A stretch of 28,158 nucleotides of DNA from a virus: positions 1 through 28,158 of IMG/VR virus record IMGVR_UViG_3300027721_000059. One strand, 5' to 3'. Below, piece after piece: positions 20,679 through 28,158 of the stretch; the stretch's first letter is position 1; every line of letters begins with the position of its first letter. The notes under the pieces were generated by a model. That model did no database searches and was not told the origin of the DNA. It worked only from the letters and a program-made list of their open reading frames with translations. The position numbers and the translations under genes were made by a program.

Positions 20679-20903
20679 ATGAAGAGTATGCTAGATAAGA
20701 TATACAACTTTTCGTTTCCTGTAGGAGGCGGAACACTAGGAGCTATAACCAAAGTTCCCGAGGTCACAAGTTCAACGATTACTCATAGCGGAATAGTTTT
20801 AGAAACTATATTAGTAGCAGCAATAGGAGCCTTAACTGGATATATCGTTAAGAAACTTTTAGATTACATATGGCCGAAGTTCTGTAGGCTATGTAAGAAG
20901 TAG
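20679..20903 (+). CDS. Small membrane protein, holin candidate
   Basis: A 74-residue protein with one clear transmembrane helix (about residues 38-56, GIVLETILVAAIGALTGYIV), a short polar N-terminus and a basic, cysteine-containing tail (KFCRLCKK). Its size, topology and place at the end of the virion operon fit a small holin or tail-anchored lysis protein. No endolysin gene is recognised near it, so the lysis assignment is inference. Its stop codon (20901-20903) lies inside the right IR-A arm. Confidence 0.6.
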   Translation: MKSMLDKIYNFSFPVGGGTLGAITKVPEVTSSTITHSGIVLETILVAAIGALTGYIVKKLLDYIWPKFCRLCKK

Positions 20904-21024
20904 TTGTTTCATGTAAACCCCTCTAGGACTCCAAAGCTATAGAGGGGTTTTTCGCGCGAACAGGACCCTTATTTCCACAGCCCTCGTAAGTGAGACTAGA
21001 GTCATAGAGTCCTACTATTTAGAA
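20900..21024. repeat. Right arm of the 125-bp inverted repeat IR-A
   Basis: The perfect reverse complement of 1-125. It starts inside the last codons of the holin-like gene and ends with TATTTAGAA at 21016-21024. That end forms a 9-bp palindrome with TTCTAAATA at 21028-21036 (three-base centre TCT), so the repeat boundary falls at the centre of a dyad. The palindrome TTCGCGCGAA is at 20951-20960. Confidence 0.97.
20915..20952 (+). terminator. Strong terminator of the virion operon
   Basis: AAACCCCTCTA (20915-20925) pairs perfectly with TAGAGGGGTTT (20940-20950), an 11-bp stem closed by a 14-base loop and followed by TT to give a TTTTT run, 12 bases after the last virion gene. This is a convincing intrinsic terminator and is also part of the inverted repeat, so its mirror image stands at the left end of the module. 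Confidence 0.85.
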
Positions 21025-21226
21025 TCTTTCTAAATAAGGCCCGAACAATAGGTTTAAGTATACCCGAAGACCGTCTCATGTTCCTTCAGGGGAGTCGGCC
21101 CGAAAGCCCTCTAGTGGTGAGTTTTTTTTTCCGGCGCTCACGGGCGGCTCGCGATTCTTATCGTTTTCTCCACCCCTTTAGTATGTAGAGCTCATGGGAC
21201 CTCCCTGGGGTTCTTACTGTCTATAC
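21025..21226. other. Non-coding linker between the two repeat-bounded modules
   Basis: 202 bases of about even GC content, richer than the surrounding genome, with no open frame of note. It begins TCTTTCTAAATAAGG and holds TCGGCCCGA at 21095-21103, so its left half looks like a diverged copy of the IR-A arm; CGAAAGCCCTCTA here mirrors CGAAAAACCCCTCTA there. A nine-T run (21122-21130) lies between GTGAG and CTCAC, which could pair. The right half contains TCGCGA (21150-21155). If the true genome holds two inverted copies of 20900-21327, this linker should be present twice. Confidence 0.6.
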
Positions 21227-21327
21227 TTAATCTAAATAGAGATAAAGGACTGGGGAGTATGACCTTAAGGGTCTGGGGGCTATACGTTCCGTTCGCGCGA
21301 CTGAGGGACTGGGGTAGTGGGTAAGTA
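21227..21327. repeat. Left arm of the 101-bp inverted repeat IR-B
   Basis: The perfect reverse complement of 28058-28158. The outer end reads TTAATCTAAATAGAG, the palindrome TCGCGCGA is at 21293-21300, and GGACTGGGG occurs twice in direct orientation (21247-21255 and 21306-21314). Although unrelated in most of its length to IR-A, it shares the tip motif and the palindrome at almost the same distance from the tip. Confidence 0.97.
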
Positions 21328-21348
21328 AGGGTGAAGGTATATCGTTTA

Positions 21349-21373
21349 GTATACGCTACGTATAGGCGTATAC
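21349..21373. promoter_or_regulatory. Palindromic site, possible operator
   Basis: GTATACGC (21349-21356) and GCGTATAC (21366-21373) form a perfect 8-bp inverted repeat around nine bases that include TACGTA. It lies just inside the IR-B arm upstream of the small-gene operon, so it could bind a dimeric regulator. No obvious regulator gene is in the window. Confidence 0.5.
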
Positions 21374-21399
21374 GAATAAGATATAGAGGGACTAATAGA

Positions 21400-21427
21400 G
21401 AAGGTCTTCCATGGCGGGAAGACCTTC
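21400..21427. promoter_or_regulatory. Perfect 11-bp stem-loop upstream of the small-gene operon
   Basis: GAAGGTCTTCC (21400-21410) and GGAAGACCTTC (21417-21427) pair perfectly around ATGGCG. No T run follows (AACGAGAAATAAAATAA), so it is either a Rho-independent terminator lacking its tail, an operator, or a structure at the 5' end of an RNA. A 13-codon frame with an A-rich leader starts shortly after, at 21453, and may be a leader peptide or chance. Confidence 0.45.
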
Positions 21428-21514
21428 AACGAGAAATAAAATAATTACAAATATGGCTTTATTTGCTTACTATATATCCATGAGAAAGGATTAGGTATAG
21501 AGAATCGTAGAATA

Positions 21515-21560
21515 GATTCCTTAACGATTCCTTAACGTTCCTAACGATTTTTAACGATTT
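21515..21560. repeat. TTAACGATT-type repeats upstream of the first small gene
   Basis: Four copies of a (T)TAACGATT/TTAACGTTCC unit at about 10-11-bp spacing, one per helical turn, which puts them on the same DNA face. They directly precede the promoter at 21567-21596. Similar clusters occur at 128-151, 21989-22010, 22660-22700 and 23671-23735. They look like operator iterons for one regulator, or initiator-type iterons. Confidence 0.75.
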
Positions 21561-21566
21561 ATTTCG

Positions 21567-21596
21567 TTGCCATGTGAGTAGGAATGTTTATATTTA
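21567..21596 (+). promoter_or_regulatory. Bacteroidota-type promoter for the small-gene region
   Basis: TTG at 21567-21569 and TATATTTA at 21589-21596 are separated by 19 bp, matching the Bacteroidota housekeeping pattern (TTTG, about 19 bp, TAnnTTTG). The gene start at 21626 lies 29 bases beyond the -7 box. The TTAACGATT repeats end seven bases before the -33 box, so a bound regulator could block or assist polymerase. Confidence 0.7.
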
Positions 21597-21625
21597 CTCT
21601 GTATAACCAATAAAAGAATAACAAA

Positions 21626-21955
21626 ATGGAAACAAGATTTTATGACATTCTCTTTCAGCCGCAGAAGAATATGATAAGCAGAATCTCCGATAGGGGAGAA
21701 GACATAGACGGCGATGCTACAAGGCCCATACACTTATTGAAGGGCTTAACCAAATCCCAATATAAGAAATGGATTCGTAAGAATCAGGACAAATGCTTAG
21801 TAGTAGTCGTAAGCGATGGGATTAACAAAGAGACTCCTGCTTACTATTATGCTCATAATCCTATAGCAGAAAGGTTCTTCTGGTCATGGTTCGGCGCTCT
21901 TATAAATGGAACAGCAGGAAATGGAGCTGCTATATTAATGGATTACTCTAAGTAA
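21626..21955 (+). CDS. Hypothetical protein, first gene after the early-type promoter
   Basis: A 109-residue protein I do not recognise. It begins METRFYDILFQPQKNMISRI, contains TRPIHLLKGLTKSQYKKWIR with a basic patch, then the strand CLVVVVSDGI, and ends with GTAGNGAAILMDYSK. The fold appears mixed alpha/beta and soluble. It has its own promoter and repeat cluster, typical of an early phage gene that interferes with or takes over host functions. The A-rich leader AATAACAAAATG supports the start. Confidence 0.65.
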   Translation: METRFYDILFQPQKNMISRISDRGEDIDGDATRPIHLLKGLTKSQYKKWIRKNQDKCLVVVVSDGINKETPAYYYAHNPIAERFFWSWFGALINGTAGNGAAILMDYSK

Positions 21956-21963
21956 ATAAGTTC

Positions 21964-21989
21964 TAGGGAATGGGTGAGAGCCTATTCCC
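21964..21989 (+). terminator. Hairpin after the first small gene
   Basis: AGGGAAT (21965-21971) pairs with ATTCCCT (21984-21990) around a 12-base loop that can extend by GG/CC. The next TTAACGATT cluster follows at once, without a U run. It may be a weak terminator separating the first small gene from the second. Confidence 0.4.
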
Positions 21990-22010
21990 TTAACGATTCC
22001 TTAACGATTT
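21989..22010. repeat. Paired TTAACGATT repeats
   Basis: Two units, CTTAACGATTC and CTTAACGATTT, in tandem at 11-bp spacing, ending 14 bases before the ATG of the next gene. The same arrangement precedes other small genes, which points to shared regulation rather than coincidence. Confidence 0.7.
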
Positions 22011-22024
22011 AATTATATAATAAA

Positions 22025-22336
22025 ATGGAATACAAAAAAGATTTTTTCTGGACAACAAAGAAACTATGGGGAGATAAACTAGATGAAGGACTTTTCCCAG
22101 TCCTTAAAGCCTCTATAGGAGGGCTTCCTCTAACTATTCCTAAAGGAGCAGTCTTAATGGCTGTAGTGGAATACCCCGCAGACTGGACTTTAGCCCAAAG
22201 GATGCATGCTCTGGAGGATAGAGATATTAAGCCATGCATAATGGTGGACGTAAGCTCTGAAGGTAAAAGGGGAGTTTTTATGGGACTTTTAATAGGAACA
22301 TATTTGGAACTTATTTATAAAAATAATAAAAAATAA
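22025..22336 (+). CDS. Hypothetical protein of the small-gene region
   Basis: A 103-residue protein without a recognised family. The N-terminal part is aromatic and charged (MEYKKDFFWTTKKLWGDK), the middle has a hydrophobic strand (AVLMAVVEYPADWTL) and the end is GVFMGLLIGTYLELIYKNNKK, possibly a weak membrane-associated helix. It stands in series with its neighbours behind an operator-like repeat pair. Leader ATATAATAAAATG fits the genome's start style. Confidence 0.6.
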   Translation: MEYKKDFFWTTKKLWGDKLDEGLFPVLKASIGGLPLTIPKGAVLMAVVEYPADWTLAQRMHALEDRDIKPCIMVDVSSEGKRGVFMGLLIGTYLELIYKNNKK

Positions 22337-22340
22337 CGAG

Positions 22341-22664
22341 ATGAAAAAGATGAAACACTACGATTACAGGTTCCGCGCAGAATGTATGCGTGATGTAAAA
22401 GAACTCGAAAAGGTCTTACAGAAGGCCGGCGTATATCCTATATGGGGTAGCCATGAACCGCTTAAGAACGGGAAGAAGTGGGTGAATAGATTTATTACGG
22501 AGAGAGACAAGGAGTTCCCTGATGTTGAAGTCTGGGCTCAGTCCGCTATGGAGATAGAGGAGCTCAGGGACTACATGAGGATGGTGGATGACGGCCATGT
22601 CATGGTCCAGACTCTTAATTATACTTTTCTCTATACTGGAGAAAGAGACTGCGATAAATCTTAA
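22341..22664 (+). CDS. Hypothetical protein of the small-gene region
   Basis: A 107-residue charged protein starting four bases after the previous stop, hence probably cotranscribed. It has a helix VKELEKVLQKAGVYPIWG, a basic stretch LKNGKKWVNRF and an acidic helix AMEIEELRDYMRMVDDG, ending FLYTGERDCDK. An alternative start is at 22350 (MKHYDYRF). No family is recognised; the size and soluble make-up fit small host-takeover proteins. The codons are GC-richer here (ggccggcgt, gacggccat) than in the virion genes. Confidence 0.6.
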   Translation: MKKMKHYDYRFRAECMRDVKELEKVLQKAGVYPIWGSHEPLKNGKKWVNRFITERDKEFPDVEVWAQSAMEIEELRDYMRMVDDGHVMVQTLNYTFLYTGERDCDKS

Positions 22665-22700
22665 CGAATCCTTAACGATTTTAACGAATCCTTAACGATT
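22660..22700. repeat. Tandem 20-bp repeat (TTAACGAATCCTTAACGATT, two copies)
   Basis: The 20-base unit at 22661-22680 is repeated exactly at 22681-22700. Each unit is itself a pair of TTAACGA(A/T)T half-repeats. This is the cleanest cluster of its kind in the window, and it leads straight into TATTTCGT and the promoter box at 22730-22737, like the cluster at 21515-21560. Confidence 0.85.
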
Positions 22701-22707
22701 TATTTCG

Positions 22708-22737
22708 TCTGTATGTAGAATGGATTTATTATATTTG
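22708..22737 (+). promoter_or_regulatory. Probable promoter with perfect TATATTTG -7 box
   Basis: TATATTTG (22730-22737) matches the Bacteroidota -7 consensus exactly and lies 26 bases before the gene at 22764. The -33 position holds TCT rather than TTG, so the promoter may need an activator bound at the adjacent repeats. The sequence between repeats and box is laid out as at 21561-21596. Confidence 0.6.
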
Positions 22738-22763
22738 GACTACATAATTAACATAATACAGAA

Positions 22764-23222
22764 ATGAAACAGAAAACCGTAGAAAACGCAAAGAGAGTTC
22801 TGGAACTATTTCCTAGTCCTCATGAACTCATGAACAGCCCGCTTATGGGTAAAGTTCTTTACCCAATACATATTATGGCCTTTAGGGATTCTCAGGAGTG
22901 GGAAGGTCTCTCTATGGCTGTAGACCATATTATGATGACTATGCAGCATAGGTCCTTCACTAAGAATGGCTACCTCTTTCCCAGAAACAGGGAGAAGGGA
23001 GAAGTCATATTACTTCACGCGTATGACGGGGAGACCCTGGTAGATAGTCTTACAGTCTATAAAGCTCTTCTGGTTCTTATGTTCTGCTCATGGATGGGTA
23101 TGGAATGCTTCTCCACTGATGTAGACTATATCCGTAAGAACTATGCTAAGATAGAGAAGCAGGCCGCTGCTTACGATAAGCTAAGATTTGATGATGACGA
23201 GATATATTCCCTAATGGACTAA
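22764..23222 (+). CDS. Hypothetical protein of the small-gene region
   Basis: A 152-residue protein, unrecognised. It is mostly helical with several methionine/histidine-rich stretches (AVDHIMMTMQHRSF, YKALLVLMFCSWMGM) and an acidic end (DDDEIYSLMD). The hydrophobic run at about residues 103-116 may be a buried helix rather than a membrane span. It has its own repeat cluster and promoter, implying it is an independently controlled early gene. Confidence 0.6.
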   Translation: MKQKTVENAKRVLELFPSPHELMNSPLMGKVLYPIHIMAFRDSQEWEGLSMAVDHIMMTMQHRSFTKNGYLFPRNREKGEVILLHAYDGETLVDSLTVYKALLVLMFCSWMGMECFSTDVDYIRKNYAKIEKQAAAYDKLRFDDDEIYSLMD

Positions 23223-23277
23223 TAGGGGGATAAATCTAATGGATTTATAATGAGTATAAATATAAAAAAAAAGAACT

Positions 23278-23478
23278 ATGAAAAAAGCAGTAGAATTATT
23301 GGAAAGAGCCTTAGGCTTTATTAACTACGTAAAGGACTCCGAAGGAGAGATAAACGATGAAGGTCTCGAAGGAGATATAATGGAGTTCCTATATGGCGAG
23401 CTAGAGGAGAGGGAAACTAATAAGGAATCCTCTTCACAACTGGATTCTATTATTAAATCTGGTGAAGGTCTTTTTTAA
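23278..23478 (+). CDS. Small acidic hypothetical protein
   Basis: A 66-residue strongly acidic protein (EGEINDEGLEGDIMEFLYGE, then ELEERETNKESSSQ). Small acidic early phage proteins often act as inhibitors or DNA mimics, but nothing here proves such a role. The leader is AAAAAAAGAACTATG, typical of this genome. The gene is followed by the folded region at 23542-23627. Confidence 0.55.
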   Translation: MKKAVELLERALGFINYVKDSEGEINDEGLEGDIMEFLYGELEERETNKESSSQLDSIIKSGEGLF

Positions 23479-23541
23479 GGAGATATGGTTATGAATAAAG
23501 AACTTCTTCCCGTTCTGCCTCAGAGTCTAAGTTTAGTTGTC

Positions 23542-23627
23542 CAACGTCTCGATAACGTTTCAGAGACGAGCTCTGAAGCCGTCTCGACGTTGTCCAGCCT
23601 TCGACTTCGGAGAAACAGAGTTTCTCC
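23542..23627 (+). ncRNA. Candidate structured RNA or RNA element
   Basis: Two strong stem-loops with five-base loops lie close together: GTTTCAGAG / CTCTGAAGC (23557-23579, nine pairs with one G-U, loop ACGAG) and GGAGAAA / TTTCTCC (23609-23627, seven perfect pairs, loop CAGAG). CAACGT (23542-23547) can also pair with ACGTTG (23587-23592) to enclose the first. The segment is clearly GC-richer than its surroundings. A 63-codon frame covers it (23485-23676), but its product is a Ser/Arg-rich string with codons unlike the neighbours, so an RNA function seems likelier. No known RNA family is recognised. Confidence 0.4.
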
Positions 23628-23670
23628 TACGTCTCAGGTAAAGCCCTCTACTTATGTATGTTTTGAGTTT

Positions 23671-23735
23671 CGTTAAGATTTCGTTAAAAAAGTTAAAGTC
23701 TCGTTAATTAACGTTTCCTTAACGTTCTTAACATA
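23671..23735. repeat. Degenerate GTTAA/TTAAC repeat cluster
   Basis: About eight GTTAA or TTAAC elements in both orientations occupy 65 bases, including GTTAATTAAC as a palindrome and two CTTAACGTT-like units. It is a more degenerate version of the TTAACGATT clusters upstream of other small genes and probably serves the gene at 23835 and the short frame before it. Confidence 0.6.
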
Positions 23736-23784
23736 GCTTTAACAAGAAGGGATAGAACTTATTTAAGAATAATCCATACTTACT

Positions 23785-23835
23785 ATGAAGGATATTAAGA
23801 GAAGAAAGAATAATAACCTTAACAACTACGTATAA
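23785..23835 (+). CDS. Possible 16-residue basic leader peptide
   Basis: A short frame MKDIKRRKNNNLNNYV ends TAA with its final A forming the ATG of the next gene, so translation could be coupled. It is rich in basic residues and asparagine. It may be a leader peptide or chance; nothing else supports it. Confidence 0.25.
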   Translation: MKDIKRRKNNNLNNYV

Positions 23836-24299
23836 TGAATGTTTTAGAAAGAGATGAATTAGGAGTAAAGACCTTACTCCATACGATTAAACTTCTTAGG
23901 GATAAGAATGAAGCTTACTTCCATGGAACCTTTAACTGGCTTATTAAGAATAGGTCTCCGTTCGCCAAGTCCCATATGCTCTATGACCCTGACAGCAACA
24001 GCTTTAAGTGGTTTACTAAACCCATACTCTATACTGAGAAAGGATGGAATGACTTTGGTCCTAATGACTATATAAAGGAACTCCATTTCTCGTATAGCTC
24101 TACAAGGCCTTTTGGTGCTATAGTTTCAGATTCCGTATGGGTTCATAAACTTCTTAATGCAAGAGCAGATGACATAGCTATAAACAAAGCTATAGAGGTA
24201 TGGGTAGCAGACTACCACTCTAAAGCTACTGACGAGCTACTACACTTTCAGAAGATACTCTTAGATATTAGAAGGGGAGGTTCTATTCCCTTATTTTAG
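23835..24299 (+). CDS. Hypothetical protein before the accessory module
   Basis: A 154-residue protein without a recognised family. It begins MNVLERDELGVKTLLHTIKL, has an aromatic central part (FHGTFNWLIKNRSPFAKSHM, then SFKWFTKPILYTEKGWNDFG) and a helical end (AINKAIEVWVADYHSKATDE). It reads as a soluble globular protein. It is the last gene before a strong terminator, closing the early-type region. Confidence 0.6.
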   Translation: MNVLERDELGVKTLLHTIKLLRDKNEAYFHGTFNWLIKNRSPFAKSHMLYDPDSNSFKWFTKPILYTEKGWNDFGPNDYIKELHFSYSSTRPFGAIVSDSVWVHKLLNARADDIAINKAIEVWVADYHSKATDELLHFQKILLDIRRGGSIPLF

Positions 24300-24464
24300 G
24301 TCTGCGTTTCTTTTCTCATGGGGGACTGCTGTTTTATTGGTTTCAGCGGTCCCCTTATTTTTTGGCTTACTTTTACATACTCCAAAATAGGATTTACTTT
24401 CCGGCCCATTGGCCTTCTCATAAGCTCTAACCTGCTTTTCTAGAACTTTCTTAAACTTTTCCAT
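24291..24464 (-). CDS. Possible 57-residue minus-strand gene
   Basis: On the minus strand an ATG at 24464 opens 57 codons to TAA at 24291-24293. The product, MEKFKKVLEKQVRAYEKANG followed by a Lys/Ser-rich middle (GPESKSYFGVCKSKPKNKG) and ending PHEKRNADLK, has a believable helix and codon choice like the other genes. Its leader (TATATATTATG) is AT-rich as elsewhere. It would be the only minus-strand gene, overlaps the terminator at 24321-24363 and runs nine bases into the end of the gene before. A small antisense-side gene is plausible but unproven. Confidence 0.4.
   Translation of the reverse strand: MEKFKKVLEKQVRAYEKANGPESKSYFGVCKSKPKNKGTAETNKTAVPHEKRNADLK
24321..24363 (+). terminator. 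Strong terminator closing the small-gene region
   Basis: GGGGACTGCTG (24321-24331) pairs with CAGCGGTCCCC (24344-24354), 11 pairs with one G-U, a 12-base loop and a following TTATTTTTT. It stands 22 bases after the 23835 gene. This is a clear intrinsic terminator separating the early-type genes from the endonuclease/modification block. Confidence 0.88.
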
Positions 24465-24488
24465 AATATATAGATAAATGGCTTAAAT

Positions 24489-24692
24489 ATGAAAAAACTA
24501 CTTAAATCCTTTTTACAAGTTATAGATGCTGTAGGAGCGGTTATTCTTAACTGGTTTTTTGGATTAATTATATTCCTATTTATATCTTTTTTAAGTTTCT
24601 GTTCTTTCCTTATAGGGGGGAAAGCAGGGCTTATTCGTTTTTATAAGGATTATGGAAGTTCCCTCGATTATGAAGAAGAACATAGACGTTAG
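24489..24692 (+). CDS. Small membrane protein
   Basis: A 67-residue protein with a basic start (MKKLLKSFLQ), a continuous hydrophobic stretch from about residue 16 to 46 (AVILNWFFGLIIFLFISFL, then SFCSFLIGG) and a charged tail (DYGSSLDYEEEHRR). The hydrophobic part could be one long or two short membrane helices. A second holin-like or membrane-exclusion role is possible; the sequence does not decide. It overlaps the next gene by about 40 bases (or 23 if that gene starts at 24670). Confidence 0.6.
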   Translation: MKKLLKSFLQVIDAVGAVILNWFFGLIIFLFISFLSFCSFLIGGKAGLIRFYKDYGSSLDYEEEHRR

Positions 24693-25008
24693 GACTAAAG
24701 AGGGTAGAGCAGATTTTTATCGCTCTACAGAATGGCTTATGCTTAGACAGTATATTCTCTCTAAGAATCCACTATGCGAGAGATGCCTTAAAAAGGATAG
24801 AATAACTCCAGCAACTGAAATACACCATAGAGTGGATTTAGCCTATTTCCCGGAAGGACGATTAGACCCTAATAACCTAGAAGCCCTATGCGCTCCCTGT
24901 CATAATAGCCACTCGGCTAGAGAAGCTACAGGTTCAGAATTAGATTTAGAAGTAGTTAATAGGAACTGGAAAATAGATGTAGAAGACTTTAATAAAAATC
25001 CAAAATGA
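24652..25008 (+). CDS. HNH endonuclease, phage packaging type
   Basis: A 118-residue protein with the phage HNH pattern: FYRSTEWLMLRQYIL (22-36), zinc ligands C42 and C45 (LCERC), catalytic H58-H59 (EIHHRVDL), N75 in the NNLEALC segment and C80, C83 with H84 and H87 (CAPCHNSH). Such enzymes usually lie next to the terminase genes and assist packaging in HK97-like phages; here it is about 22 kb away on the other module, which is notable. The start may be 24670 (MKKNIDVRTKEG), since 24652 lies deeper in the previous gene. It overlaps the next gene at ATGA. Confidence 0.88.
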   Translation: MEVPSIMKKNIDVRTKEGRADFYRSTEWLMLRQYILSKNPLCERCLKKDRITPATEIHHRVDLAYFPEGRLDPNNLEALCAPCHNSHSAREATGSELDLEVVNRNWKIDVEDFNKNPK

Positions 25009-25487
25009 ACGAGATTAGAAACTTAAAATACTTTCCTGGATATGGAGTAACCATAGATGGAGAGGTATGGAGTTATAAAGGGGAAGAACCTATAAGACTT
25101 CAGGAAATAAATCATGCTTACGATTATGACGTTGTAAATCTAACTAAGGAGGATGGAAAGAGAGCTACTGTCTTAATCCACCAACTCGTTATGGAAGCAT
25201 GGGGAGTTCCTAGACCCAGACCTTTTAGTGAACATGTCATAACCCATTTGGATAGAAATAAGAAGAATAATAGATTAGATAATCTTAGATGGATTCGTAA
25301 GGATGAAATAAGAGCTAATAAATCACTACCTGTAAGAGCTATAGGAATAGATGAAGGGGATAAGATACTATTCCGAACAACAACAGATGCGGCTAAATAC
25401 TTTAGAACAAATCAGGTGAAAATAAGAGATGCTATTATAGCAGGAAAAATCTGGAGAGGATATAAGTTTGAATATATCGAAAAATAA
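25005..25487 (+). CDS. HNH homing-type endonuclease with NUMOD domains
   Basis: A 160-residue protein of free-standing homing endonuclease design. Residues about 5-30 resemble NUMOD4 (YFPGYGVTIDGEVWSYKG). The HNH_3 core spans about 57-97, with LIHQLVMEAWGV, the H81-D83 pair in ITHLDRNKKNN and N93 in LDNLRWI. Residues 108-157 resemble NUMOD1, a DNA-binding helix-turn-helix ending WRGYKFEYIE. Such genes spread by cutting phage genomes that lack them. The gene is coupled by ATGA to the HNH gene before it and is followed directly by the glycosyltransferase gene. Confidence 0.87.
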   Translation: MNEIRNLKYFPGYGVTIDGEVWSYKGEEPIRLQEINHAYDYDVVNLTKEDGKRATVLIHQLVMEAWGVPRPRPFSEHVITHLDRNKKNNRLDNLRWIRKDEIRANKSLPVRAIGIDEGDKILFRTTTDAAKYFRTNQVKIRDAIIAGKIWRGYKFEYIEK

Positions 25488-25489
25488 TC

Positions 25490-26239
25490 ATGAAAGAAGG
25501 TATATCTATTTTAATAACGGCTTTTCAGGCGCAGGACTTTATAGATAGATGTTTATATTCTATAGAGACACAGACCTATTTTAAGGACAACGATAACTAT
25601 GAGGTCTTAATAGGAGTAGATGGATGTGAGCCTACTCTAACTGCTATACAAGAAATAATGCTTAGGAGGGGATTTAGGAATATAAGAGTTTTTATGATGG
25701 ACTCTAATAAGGGGACCTTTATAACTATGAACACTCTTATAGACCTATATAAGTATAATCAGTTTATTAGATTCGATGCAGATGACATAATGAGGACTAC
25801 TATGGTCGAAAGGATTATGGACGAGAAGGATGGATATGACTTAGTGAGATATTTTTACCATAACTTCCATAATAATGGAGAACCTGCTGAGCCCTATTTA
25901 CAAAAAGACGTTATGTATGGTCAGGGGTGCTCTTACTTTAAGCGTAGGGTCTTCGATGTTGTAGGAGGGTATATGCCATGGCTATGTGGAGCGGATTCTG
26001 AAATACTATATCGCATAGAGAGAACAGGTATACTTAAGACTATGAAGATAAATGAGGTCTTATTCGAGAGAAGACTTCATGACCATAATCTTACTATATC
26101 TCCAAAAACAGGACTCCAGTCCCCCCTAAGAAAACACTATGCTAACGTCATAAAGAATATGAATAAGGGAATAGCTTTTGGCCTAGAAAACCCTTATTTG
26201 GATAAAGTAACTAACACCTATAAAGAAGTAGAACTATGA
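25490..26239 (+). CDS. Glycosyltransferase, GT-A fold, family-2-like
   Basis: A 249-residue soluble transferase. The N-terminal nucleotide-binding part reads ISILITAFQAQDFIDRCLYS (5-24), with YEVLIGVDGCEPT as the second strand. The metal-binding DxD motif is FDADD (95-99). The acceptor region contains GYMPWLCGADSEILYR (160-175), where GT2 enzymes have the ED catalytic segment. No membrane helices, so it acts in the cytoplasm on a soluble or peripheral acceptor. Together with the PP-loop ATPase and formyltransferase it hints at a phage-coded modification of surface glycan, protein or DNA; the acceptor is unknown. Confidence 0.88.
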   Translation: MKEGISILITAFQAQDFIDRCLYSIETQTYFKDNDNYEVLIGVDGCEPTLTAIQEIMLRRGFRNIRVFMMDSNKGTFITMNTLIDLYKYNQFIRFDADDIMRTTMVERIMDEKDGYDLVRYFYHNFHNNGEPAEPYLQKDVMYGQGCSYFKRRVFDVVGGYMPWLCGADSEILYRIERTGILKTMKINEVLFERRLHDHNLTISPKTGLQSPLRKHYANVIKNMNKGIAFGLENPYLDKVTNTYKEVEL

Positions 26240-26514
26240 AACAACAGGAACCAGAAATGGATTATAGGAGAAACAAGAGAGTAGTTTTCCTTAATCCTGA
26301 AAACTTAGAACCAGAACTATTAGCCCTTTCTGTAGCAGATGCCTCTAGATATTTACATATAGGTCAGAATATAGTAACAGACTTATGCATGAATAGAATA
26401 GAGAAGGTTCCTAAAAAGAGTAGGGAAAAGATAGGATATAAGATTATGTATGCCGACCAGTGGGAGAAGGAGCATAATGAGTTATTACCTTACGGAAGAG
26501 TAAATCTGGAGTAG
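26236..26514 (+). CDS. NUMOD1-like DNA-binding protein
   Basis: A 92-residue protein. Residues about 32-75 match the NUMOD1-like helix-turn-helix pattern: LSVADASRYLHIGQNIVTDL, then a basic stretch (KVPKKSREK) and GYKIMYADQWE, where the family has G-Y-x-x-x-Y. It is free-standing without a nuclease, so it may be a stand-alone regulator or the leftover half of a homing endonuclease. It is coupled by ATGA overlap to the glycosyltransferase. An alternative start lies at 26257. Confidence 0.65.
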   Translation: MKQQEPEMDYRRNKRVVFLNPENLEPELLALSVADASRYLHIGQNIVTDLCMNRIEKVPKKSREKIGYKIMYADQWEKEHNELLPYGRVNLE

Positions 26515-26571
26515 GATATATACTATGCTTCCTTTTATCTTTGGAGGCTCTTTCGGAATTATGTTTTTTTT

Positions 26572-26602
26572 CCCTCTCCTGAAATCTCAGGAGAGGGTTT
26601 TT
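26572..26602 (+). terminator. Strong terminator before the sigma factor gene
   Basis: CCCTCTCCTGA (26572-26582) and TCAGGAGAGGG (26587-26597) form a perfect 11-bp stem with a four-base loop followed by TTTTT. It ends 12 bases before the ATG at 26615. It closes the operon ending with the NUMOD-like gene and implies that the sigma factor gene needs its own promoter within those few bases or depends on read-through. Confidence 0.9.
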
Positions 26603-26614
26603 ATTATAAGATAT

Positions 26615-26965
26615 ATGGCTTTACACTACGTTAAAAATAAAGAGCTCTATTTAGAGATAATAAAATCCAAGGACTCCTCATGCGCTACTGCAGAACTTAT
26701 GGGGATGTTCTTTAAGATGAGCAATGGATTAGCAAATAAGTTTAACTTCTCCCAGCAAGATAGAGAGGACTGTATAATGGGCGGAGTAGAGGATGCATGG
26801 AAATACTTCTGGAACTTCGATGCCTCTATATCCACTAATGCCTTCGCCTATATAACTCAGATTATAAAGAATGGTCAGTTTAAGACCCATAGAGATATTT
26901 ATAAATCCTACTTTAAGGATATAGGATATAAGCAGGTTTCTATTAATAACATATACAACTTATGA
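26615..26965 (+). CDS. Late-type sigma factor, T4 gp55-like
   Basis: A 116-residue protein that looks like sigma region 2 alone. Residues about 38-96 (GLANKFNFSQQDREDCIMGG, then VEDAWKYFWNFDASISTNAF and AYITQIIKNGQF) parallel T4 gp55 in the D-x-I-x-D-G-[IV]-E...NFDP...NPFAYFTQI pattern that contacts core polymerase and melts the -10 region. Region 4 is absent, as in gp55. I chose the ATG at 26615 because an upstream in-frame ATG at 26525 would place the terminator hairpin inside the gene and add an unrelated hydrophobic 30-residue N-terminus. The stop overlaps the next start (ATGA). Confidence 0.75.
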   Translation: MALHYVKNKELYLEIIKSKDSSCATAELMGMFFKMSNGLANKFNFSQQDREDCIMGGVEDAWKYFWNFDASISTNAFAYITQIIKNGQFKTHRDIYKSYFKDIGYKQVSINNIYNL

Positions 26966-28035
26966 AATACCTCTTAAGTCCTAACACTTTCGTTCAGGAT
27001 AAACAGGACCTGTTTATAACTCATAAAGGAGCTACAACATGGTTTAGAATGCCTCCTGGATTTAGTATAAAAGAGGTAAGTGAGGACCTTAAAATACTAT
27101 GCCTTACCCTTCTATTCTACCCCCTGAATAGGGATATTTATAATCATGAGTATACCAGAACGCCAACAGGTAGCAATATAGGTATGGCCTATTCTGGAGG
27201 AACAGATTCTGCCTCTATGGCTTTCCTCTTACCTGAAGATAGAACTATTCCTTTCCACCATTTAAGATTAGCAACAACTAAAACAGTATATAAACCAGAT
27301 AACCAGACTTTCTGTGCAGATGTTTTCGAAGACACAACTATAAAGAGATTCCGGAGAGGTATAATAAGGATTCCTTCTACGTTTGAAGACCTCAGACAAC
27401 TAAGAGGATTAAGACCTGGGTTCATGAATGACTATTCCTTTTTCGCAGGAATAGTTCTTATGGCTGATGAACTAGGATTAGGCTACCTCTCTCAGGGTAG
27501 ACTAATAGAGAACTCCTGGATACACTCTGGACAATACTACCAGGACTGGCCTAATACGGAACACTATAAGACCTTCTTTGGCCTATTCGAAAGAGCAGGC
27601 CTTCCTCTATATCTTCCTATTACTCTATGCTCTGAAGCTCTTACTACAAAGATAGTAACAGCAGAAGGACTATTTACACAGCCATGTATGAGAGGGTCCA
27701 GAGGACAAGGATGTAACAACTGCTACAAATGCTTTAGAAAAAGTATGCTTAAAGGAGAGCTTATACCCTATAAAGATTCTAAAGAGATAATGACCTATAT
27801 AACTAAGAGACCACTTAAGCAGGCTTCAGGACTTATACATGCTATGAATAAGTATGGATTCGATATACCAGAGCTACAAGAGTATAAAGGATTAGACCTT
27901 TCGTTCCTGGAGAAGTGGTTCCCTTATACACTCAGAGGTATACCAAAAGAGTTCCATGAAGACCTCTCTGCTAGAATAAGTCAATATGCAGAAAGAGAGG
28001 AAGACCCTACCAGACTATTAGAGTATAAGATATAA
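26962..28035 (+). CDS. PP-loop ATPase with QueC-like zinc-binding cysteines
   Basis: A 357-residue adenylating enzyme of the PP-loop (adenine nucleotide alpha-hydrolase-like) superfamily. The ATP pyrophosphate loop is SGGTDSAS (78-85). Cysteines C242, C251, C254 and C257 (in GCNNCYKCFRK) form a C-x8-C-x2-C-x2-C cluster like the zinc site of QueC, the 7-cyano-7-deazaguanine synthase. The remaining sequence and the greater length differ from QueC, and no QueD, QueE or transglycosylase gene is in view, so the substrate is open. It is coupled to the sigma gene. It could serve DNA base or sugar modification. Confidence 0.8.
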   Translation: MKYLLSPNTFVQDKQDLFITHKGATTWFRMPPGFSIKEVSEDLKILCLTLLFYPLNRDIYNHEYTRTPTGSNIGMAYSGGTDSASMAFLLPEDRTIPFHHLRLATTKTVYKPDNQTFCADVFEDTTIKRFRRGIIRIPSTFEDLRQLRGLRPGFMNDYSFFAGIVLMADELGLGYLSQGRLIENSWIHSGQYYQDWPNTEHYKTFFGLFERAGLPLYLPITLCSEALTTKIVTAEGLFTQPCMRGSRGQGCNNCYKCFRKSMLKGELIPYKDSKEIMTYITKRPLKQASGLIHAMNKYGFDIPELQEYKGLDLSFLEKWFPYTLRGIPKEFHEDLSARISQYAEREEDPTRLLEYKI

Positions 28036-28057
28036 CTATTTGATTACTAATACTTTA

Positions 28058-28158
28058 TACTTACCCACTACCCCAGTCCCTCAGTCGCGCGAACGGAACG
28101 TATAGCCCCCAGACCCTTAAGGTCATACTCCCCAGTCCTTTATCTCTATTTAGATTAA
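28058..28158. repeat. Right arm of the 101-bp inverted repeat IR-B
   Basis: The perfect reverse complement of 21227-21327, starting 22 bases after the last gene and running to the last base of the window. It carries TCGCGCGA at 28085-28092 and ends TATTTAGATTAA. Read across a circular junction to base 1, TATTTAGA (28147-28154) and TCTAAATA (2-9) would form an 8-bp inverted repeat with a five-base centre. Confidence 0.97.

Follow-up and report, generated by a model that had tools for sequence, protein, structure and literature searches.

The window (the whole stretch of DNA analysed) is an IMG/VR virus record of 28,158 bases. Genes for a terminase, a portal and a prohead protease are present in it, and the record is therefore that of a tailed phage. 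When bacterial genomes were searched with the portal, no host was found, the single match being remote (25% identity). An SD-like motif was absent from 33 of the 36 gene starts examined (a doubtful 63-codon frame being counted in the 36), and promoter-like words of the form TATATTT(A/G) were found upstream of two early genes. In the passages of PMC6847099 that deal with these signals, Bacteroidota are described as lacking SD leaders and as having the −7 element TAHHTTTG. The SD-less starts and the TATATTT(A/G) words fit a host of this lineage, which we infer from the sequence. No tRNA or tmRNA was detected.

In the early region of this phage, positions 23479-23834 form a gap with genes on both sides and divergent arrays of TTAAC units inside. 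The features in and around it are:

23278-23478, + strand: small acidic gene of 66 codons upstream of the folded element, with a weak match to PHROG 35033 (E 5e-4), where the function is unknown
23485-23676, + strand: open frame of 63 codons (61 from 23491), judged non-coding from its codon score and from having no relative and no family
23536-23640, strand undesignated: whole folded element with tandem hairpins, defined by energies, z and shuffles
23671-23707, − strand: leftward array of four TTAAC units (23707, 23696, 23687, 23676; spacing 11-9-11), a possible operator facing the hairpins
23708-23743, + strand: rightward array of four TTAAC units (23708, 23719, 23728, 23739; spacing 11-9-11), facing the 154-codon gene
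23835-24299, + strand: 154-codon gene downstream of the element, no family

Both the small acidic gene before the folded segment and the repeat cluster after it had been described in the earlier note. The 154-codon protein had no match in Pfam, PHROGs, NCBIfam or PADLOC, and its single-sequence structure prediction (pLDDT 37.7) was uninformative and too poor for a fold search. Past its gene, at 24320-24360, we observed a strong intrinsic terminator, consisting of a 12-pair stem followed by TTATTTTTT (z −3.99).

Folding was scanned in 654 windows of 86 bases. The two lowest energies on the + strand were those of the windows starting at 23522 and 23542, and the lowest on the − strand was that of the window starting at 23542. 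The lowest + strand z in the scan belonged to window 23522 (−5.74, 50 shuffles), and window 23542 ranked 20 by z on the + strand and 30 on the − strand. Positions 23542-23627, which the earlier note had singled out as a strongly folded segment of 86 bases, showed on their own a moderate excess, with z values of −3.16 on the + strand (4 of 600 shuffles as stable) and −2.36 on the − strand (12 of 600). The wider stretch 23536-23640 reached −41.6 kcal/mol on the + strand and −45.0 on the − strand, with z values of −4.37 and −4.29 and none of 600 shuffles as stable on either strand, for a structure that was picked after the sequence had been seen. The scan energies and these z values confirm the strong fold but not its 86-base extent: the folding signal is real and unusual, and is better delimited as 23536-23640, which holds two tandem hairpins. 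The segment had also been called GC-rich between AT-rich regions. Its GC content is 0.52, compared with 0.375 for the window as a whole and with 0.37 (left) and 0.28 (right) for the flanks, but the excess is modest, as 1.3% of all 86-base windows are equally GC-rich.

The two hairpins are built as follows:

23538-23596, strand undesignated: hairpin 1, from pair probabilities and the loop list
23542-23548/23586-23592 (7 pairs), 23551-23553/23581-23583 (3) and 23557-23565/23571-23579 (9): helices of hairpin 1, with outermost pairs 23538-23539/23595-23596
23566-23570: terminal loop of hairpin 1, 5 bases
23540-23541/23593-23594 and 23549-23550/23584-23585: 2x2 loops of hairpin 1, TC/TC on the + strand and GA/GA on the − strand
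23597-23639, strand undesignated: hairpin 2, from pair probabilities and z
23609-23616/23620-23627 (8 pairs), 23603-23605/23631-23633 (3) and 23597-23600/23636-23639 (4): helices of hairpin 2
23617-23619: terminal loop of hairpin 2, 3 bases
23601-23602/23634-23635 (2x2) and 23606-23608/23628-23630 (3x3, GUA/GAA on the − strand): internal loops of hairpin 2

In + strand letters, the outer part of hairpin 1 runs UG/CA, loop UC/UC, CAACGUC/GACGUUG, loop UC/UC, GAU/GUC, and its inner part loop AAC/C, stem GUUUCAGAG/CUCUGAAGC and terminal loop ACGAG; pair probabilities on this strand were 0.94-0.98 for 23542-23548/23586-23592 and 23559-23565/23571-23577. Hairpin 2 reads GCCU/AGGU, loop UC/UC, GAC/GUC, loop UUC/UAC, GGAGAAAC/GUUUCUCC and terminal loop AGA, its 8-pair stem having a pair probability of 0.97-1.0 on both strands. 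Two hairpins of seven to nine pairs with five-base loops, plus an outer six-pair helix, had been proposed. This description suits hairpin 1 (9-pair stem, 5-base loop) but not the three-base loop of hairpin 2, and instead of a helix round both hairpins, the 7-pair helix 23542-23548/23586-23592 encloses hairpin 1 only. The hairpins resemble each other in part (TTGTCCAACGTCTC at 23537 versus TTCTCCTACGTCTC at 23622, 86% over 14), and a partial duplication may contribute to this likeness. An intrinsic terminator was considered and rejected: hairpin 2 is followed by TACGTCTCAGG, with no T-run, and is absent from the terminator scan.

The 63-codon frame runs across the whole element. It is open, and AAGGAG lies eight bases before the ATG at 23491, as would be expected if the frame encoded a genuine 61- to 63-residue protein and the hairpins were incidental. 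However, a leader of this kind is missing at all but three of the starts listed for this phage. Moreover, the codon log-odds of the frame, scored from 23491, were −0.099, compared to a mean of 0.25 (sd 0.083) for gene windows, none of the 332 being as low; among off-frame open windows, 80% of 25 scored equal to or above it. The codons had previously been called foreign to the neighbourhood, which agrees with a score below every gene window. When all six frames were compared, the region was fitted better by a − strand frame model than by the + frame. We found no relative of the frame in IMG/VR and no family in Pfam, PHROGs, NCBIfam or PADLOC, and the AlphaFold prediction for the 61-residue product (single sequence, mean pLDDT 56) was too poor to use. 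The frame was judged non-coding, and on codon usage, leader type and missing relatives we rejected the protein reading, to which we give next to no credence.

Furthermore, we searched for relatives of the element itself. Neither the element nor the adjacent 152- and 154-codon genes had relatives in IMG/VR. Among 50,697 phage records there was likewise no relative of the element or of these genes, one search giving only matches that cover 15-18% of the query with E values of 1 to 5, and among plasmids three records gave 23-base matches at chance level. Nine relatives were found through the portal; the element is absent from all nine, which are mostly fragments, and the near-identical G001 ends before it. 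A covariance model built from the single sequence was run against 19 of 30 sources (the window and 18 of 29 loci; L001, L009, L011-L018 and L028, as duplicates or overlapping pieces, were left out) and found itself, a weak + strand self-overlap and nothing else. An exact 17-base hairpin word occurred in three viral contigs, where the match stops at 17-19 bases and was dismissed as chance. When early-gene homologues of the HNH-like protein were sought, only the known relative was returned. An Rfam search had been proposed earlier as a check; with Rfam 15 at the gathering score no family was matched in the window, and a permissive search of 23440-23760 gave three sub-threshold hits, all at chance level.

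Occurrence in this record only, together with composition and codons that differ from those of the neighbours, would also suit a recent foreign insert or a functionless near-palindrome that merely folds well. Against this stand the placement of the segment in a compact early region and the recurrence of one tandem-mismatch loop, identical in all three cases, in separate helices, which would be hard to reach by drift from a palindrome, and we regard such an origin as improbable.

These loops are the main reason for interest in the element. In − strand letters, each of the three 2x2 internal loops is GA/GA, that is, tandem G-A pairs, and the one 3x3 loop is GUA/GAA. In 1000 − strand shuffles, one GA/GA loop was seen in 39 folds and more than one in none, although these loop tests were set up after the loop pattern had been seen. 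On the + strand the same three loops are UC/UC, of which one was present in 15 of 1000 shuffles and more than one in none; two identical 2x2 loops of whatever kind appeared in 2 of 1000 + strand shuffles. Of 9532 windows scanned in the window and in seven loci, both strands included, five had two GA/GA loops, three of them here and two in L007. When the − strand was folded over the wider 23497-23662, the GA/GA loop of hairpin 2 was lost to other pairing and two remained. Tandem G-A pairs stack and stiffen RNA and are common sites of protein or tertiary contact, and tandem G-A loops stabilise RNA depending on their closing pairs; this stability and dependence were reportedly described by Walter in 1994, in a paper cited by PMC5393185.

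The clues to the strand conflict. Hairpin 1 folds better on the + strand (z −4.16 versus −3.29), where two wobble pairs are kept, and hairpin 2 (23598-23640) folds better on the − strand (z −3.84 versus −2.62). A further clue to the + strand is that the element sits downstream of rightward genes. We lean slightly to the leftward reading over the rightward one, because the symmetric 2x2 internal loops all turn into tandem G-A pairs on the − strand, a design that gives a sharp prediction of which strand works.

The leftward and rightward TTAAC arrays stand back to back at 23707/23708. The same four-unit arrangement, spacing 11-9-11, was found at 22661 (+ strand, 22661-22697) before the gene at 22764, and an array with one variant among its four units, as read from the sequence, was found at 21521 (21521-21556) before 21626. 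TTAACG units with a 9-11-base period precede early genes and are also listed at 21990-22006. In the relative G002, one of six loci scanned (L020) has a four-unit array with spacing 11-10-9 at 12997-12967, before an early gene. Among 1000 dinucleotide shuffles of 20901-28158, chains of four TTAAC units did not occur and a chain of three occurred once. A search for the TTAACG-array pattern elsewhere gave three contigs, all carrying one near-identical unrelated stretch, and was discarded. The arrays look like operators for a regulator that binds in tandem, and are possible candidate binding sites; 11-base direct repeats recall OmpR/PhoB or CtrA sites.

A site acting at the DNA level (a replication origin, for instance, or a dyad bound by protein) would have hairpins that extrude or present symmetric half-sites, with the eight TTAAC units resembling iterons. 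The two strands fold about equally well, an excess is seen for single-stranded DNA folding as well (z −3.66 on the + strand and −4.02 on the − strand), the arrays adjoin the hairpins, and the words CGTCTC/GAGACG are dense here, with four within 91 bases compared to six in the remaining window. However, no initiator protein was recognised, and the similar arrays before 22764, before 21626 (with its variant unit) and before the early gene of the relative fit promoters or operators better than an origin. We consider a DNA-level site unlikely.

Past the last unit of the arrays before 21626 and 22764, TATATTT(A/G) follows at 38 bases; at that distance from the arrays adjoining the hairpins it is absent on either side. 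At the expected spot after either adjoining array, the −7 motif TAHHTTTG, as given in the passages of PMC6847099 on this element and applied here on a presumed host lineage, was not found, and only words with a single mismatch were present. A rightward near-match, TAAGTTTA at 23528, lies just before the hairpins and carries a disfavoured G; in the same part of PMC6847099, G is virtually absent at that position of the motif. On neither strand was a convincing promoter for the element found.

Further upstream, TATATTTG at 22730, 38 bases past the last unit of a TTAAC array, is a plausible promoter; the element lies downstream of it and of two + strand genes, and a rightward early message would start near 22742. 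The hairpins would then be an intercistronic pair in that message, serving as an RNase III processing site or a stabilising 3′ end. This amounts to the RNA reading on the + strand and overlaps in part with the explanation preferred below. The greater stability of hairpin 1 on the + strand agrees with it; on the other hand, there is no T-run past hairpin 2, whereas the end of the next gene has a classical terminator, and we know of no stabilising role for UC/UC loops. As a separate explanation we hold it possible, though well short of even. In phage T7, RNase III processing hairpins lie among the early genes. The likeness consists of irregular long hairpins between co-directional genes, the intercistronic position and the fold both being found here; the element differs in having two hairpins with a repeated loop type and in being known from sequence alone, with a host lineage that is only presumed.

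Of the earlier suggestion that the segment may be a small RNA, the non-coding character and the strong fold are upheld by the codon score, the folding energies and the loop statistics, but the Rfam and promoter searches gave no support for a separate small RNA. Our preferred explanation, which we put only just above even, is that 23536-23640 is a candidate structured non-coding RNA element of the phage early region, matching no family. Its two tandem stem-loops, with short helices separated by one repeated small internal loop, would act as folded RNA. It may be a short transcript that runs leftward out of the divergent operators at 23671-23743 or, alternatively, a 3′ untranslated or intercistronic part of a rightward early message. 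A stable, probably protein-bound RNA of this kind could tune early gene expression, or protect the message or mark it for cutting. More specifically, and as a rather doubtful proposal, it could be a leftward phage RNA of ~105-165 nt, with two hairpins that contain regularly repeated tandem sheared G-A modules; such an RNA would be transcribed from a divergent operator whose 4+4 TTAAC units are in helical phase, and would regulate the early region by binding protein. If it is an RNA, it would be a structured phage RNA without a described family, in a phage with Bacteroidota-like promoters. To our knowledge few phage RNAs are described for Bacteroidota hosts, and a literature search for them brought up nothing. 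Should it prove not to be an RNA, the region would still be a divergent regulatory site worth mapping.

Among known systems, the element resembles phage small regulatory RNAs and structured UTR elements, which form no single family, in being short, strongly folded, non-coding and placed among early genes; it differs in having no Rfam match at the gathering score, its best permissive hits being at chance level. On the − strand, 23546-23588 partly resembles Rfam RF01369 (CRISPR-DR56) but scores 15.3 bits (E 3.2) where the gathering score is 35, and a CRISPR-repeat mimic was rejected on this chance-level score. In type III toxin-antitoxin systems, a ToxI-like RNA of tandem direct repeats precedes a ToxN-type toxin. 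Here, too, a structured RNA would lie upstream of a gene of ~150 codons. In contrast to such systems, the hairpins hold no tandem repeats (the one Tandem Repeats Finder row, of 15 bases, lies in the TTAAC arrays), operator arrays separate the RNA from the gene, and the 154-codon protein matches no toxin model.

The window ends are perfect reverse complements of internal parts (1-125 of 20900-21024, and 28058-28158 of 21227-21327). These matches point to a map of ~28.4 kb, circular or permuted, in which two perfect inverted repeats of ~428 bases lie between a late and an early arm and the contig breaks off within the second repeat copy; an assembly error is also possible. At 20903-21626 lies a gap of ~700 bases that has no long open frames and is GC-rich in part; 20900-21327 belongs to the inverted repeat, and no Rfam match above chance was found in the gap. 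The relative G002 (portal 75% identical) is laid out in the same way, its inverted repeat being ~1.1 kb long; the positions concerned are:

L003, 1-103
L020, 9164-9266, 10163-10261 and 15400-15498

Its early genes (for a 67-residue protein, an HNH and an HNH-like protein, 35-46% identical) are oppositely oriented relative to the late genes. The inverted repeats seem to divide the maps of the phage and its relative into two arms that differ in relative orientation, and the arms may invert through recombination at the repeats. A literature search showed no paper on this layout. In the early arm we further observed a glycosyltransferase-like protein at 25490-26239 (NCBIfam, sub-threshold) and a DUF6395 protein at 26962-28035. 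Positions 26525-26965 match PHROG 234, a late sigma transcription factor (E 9e-13).
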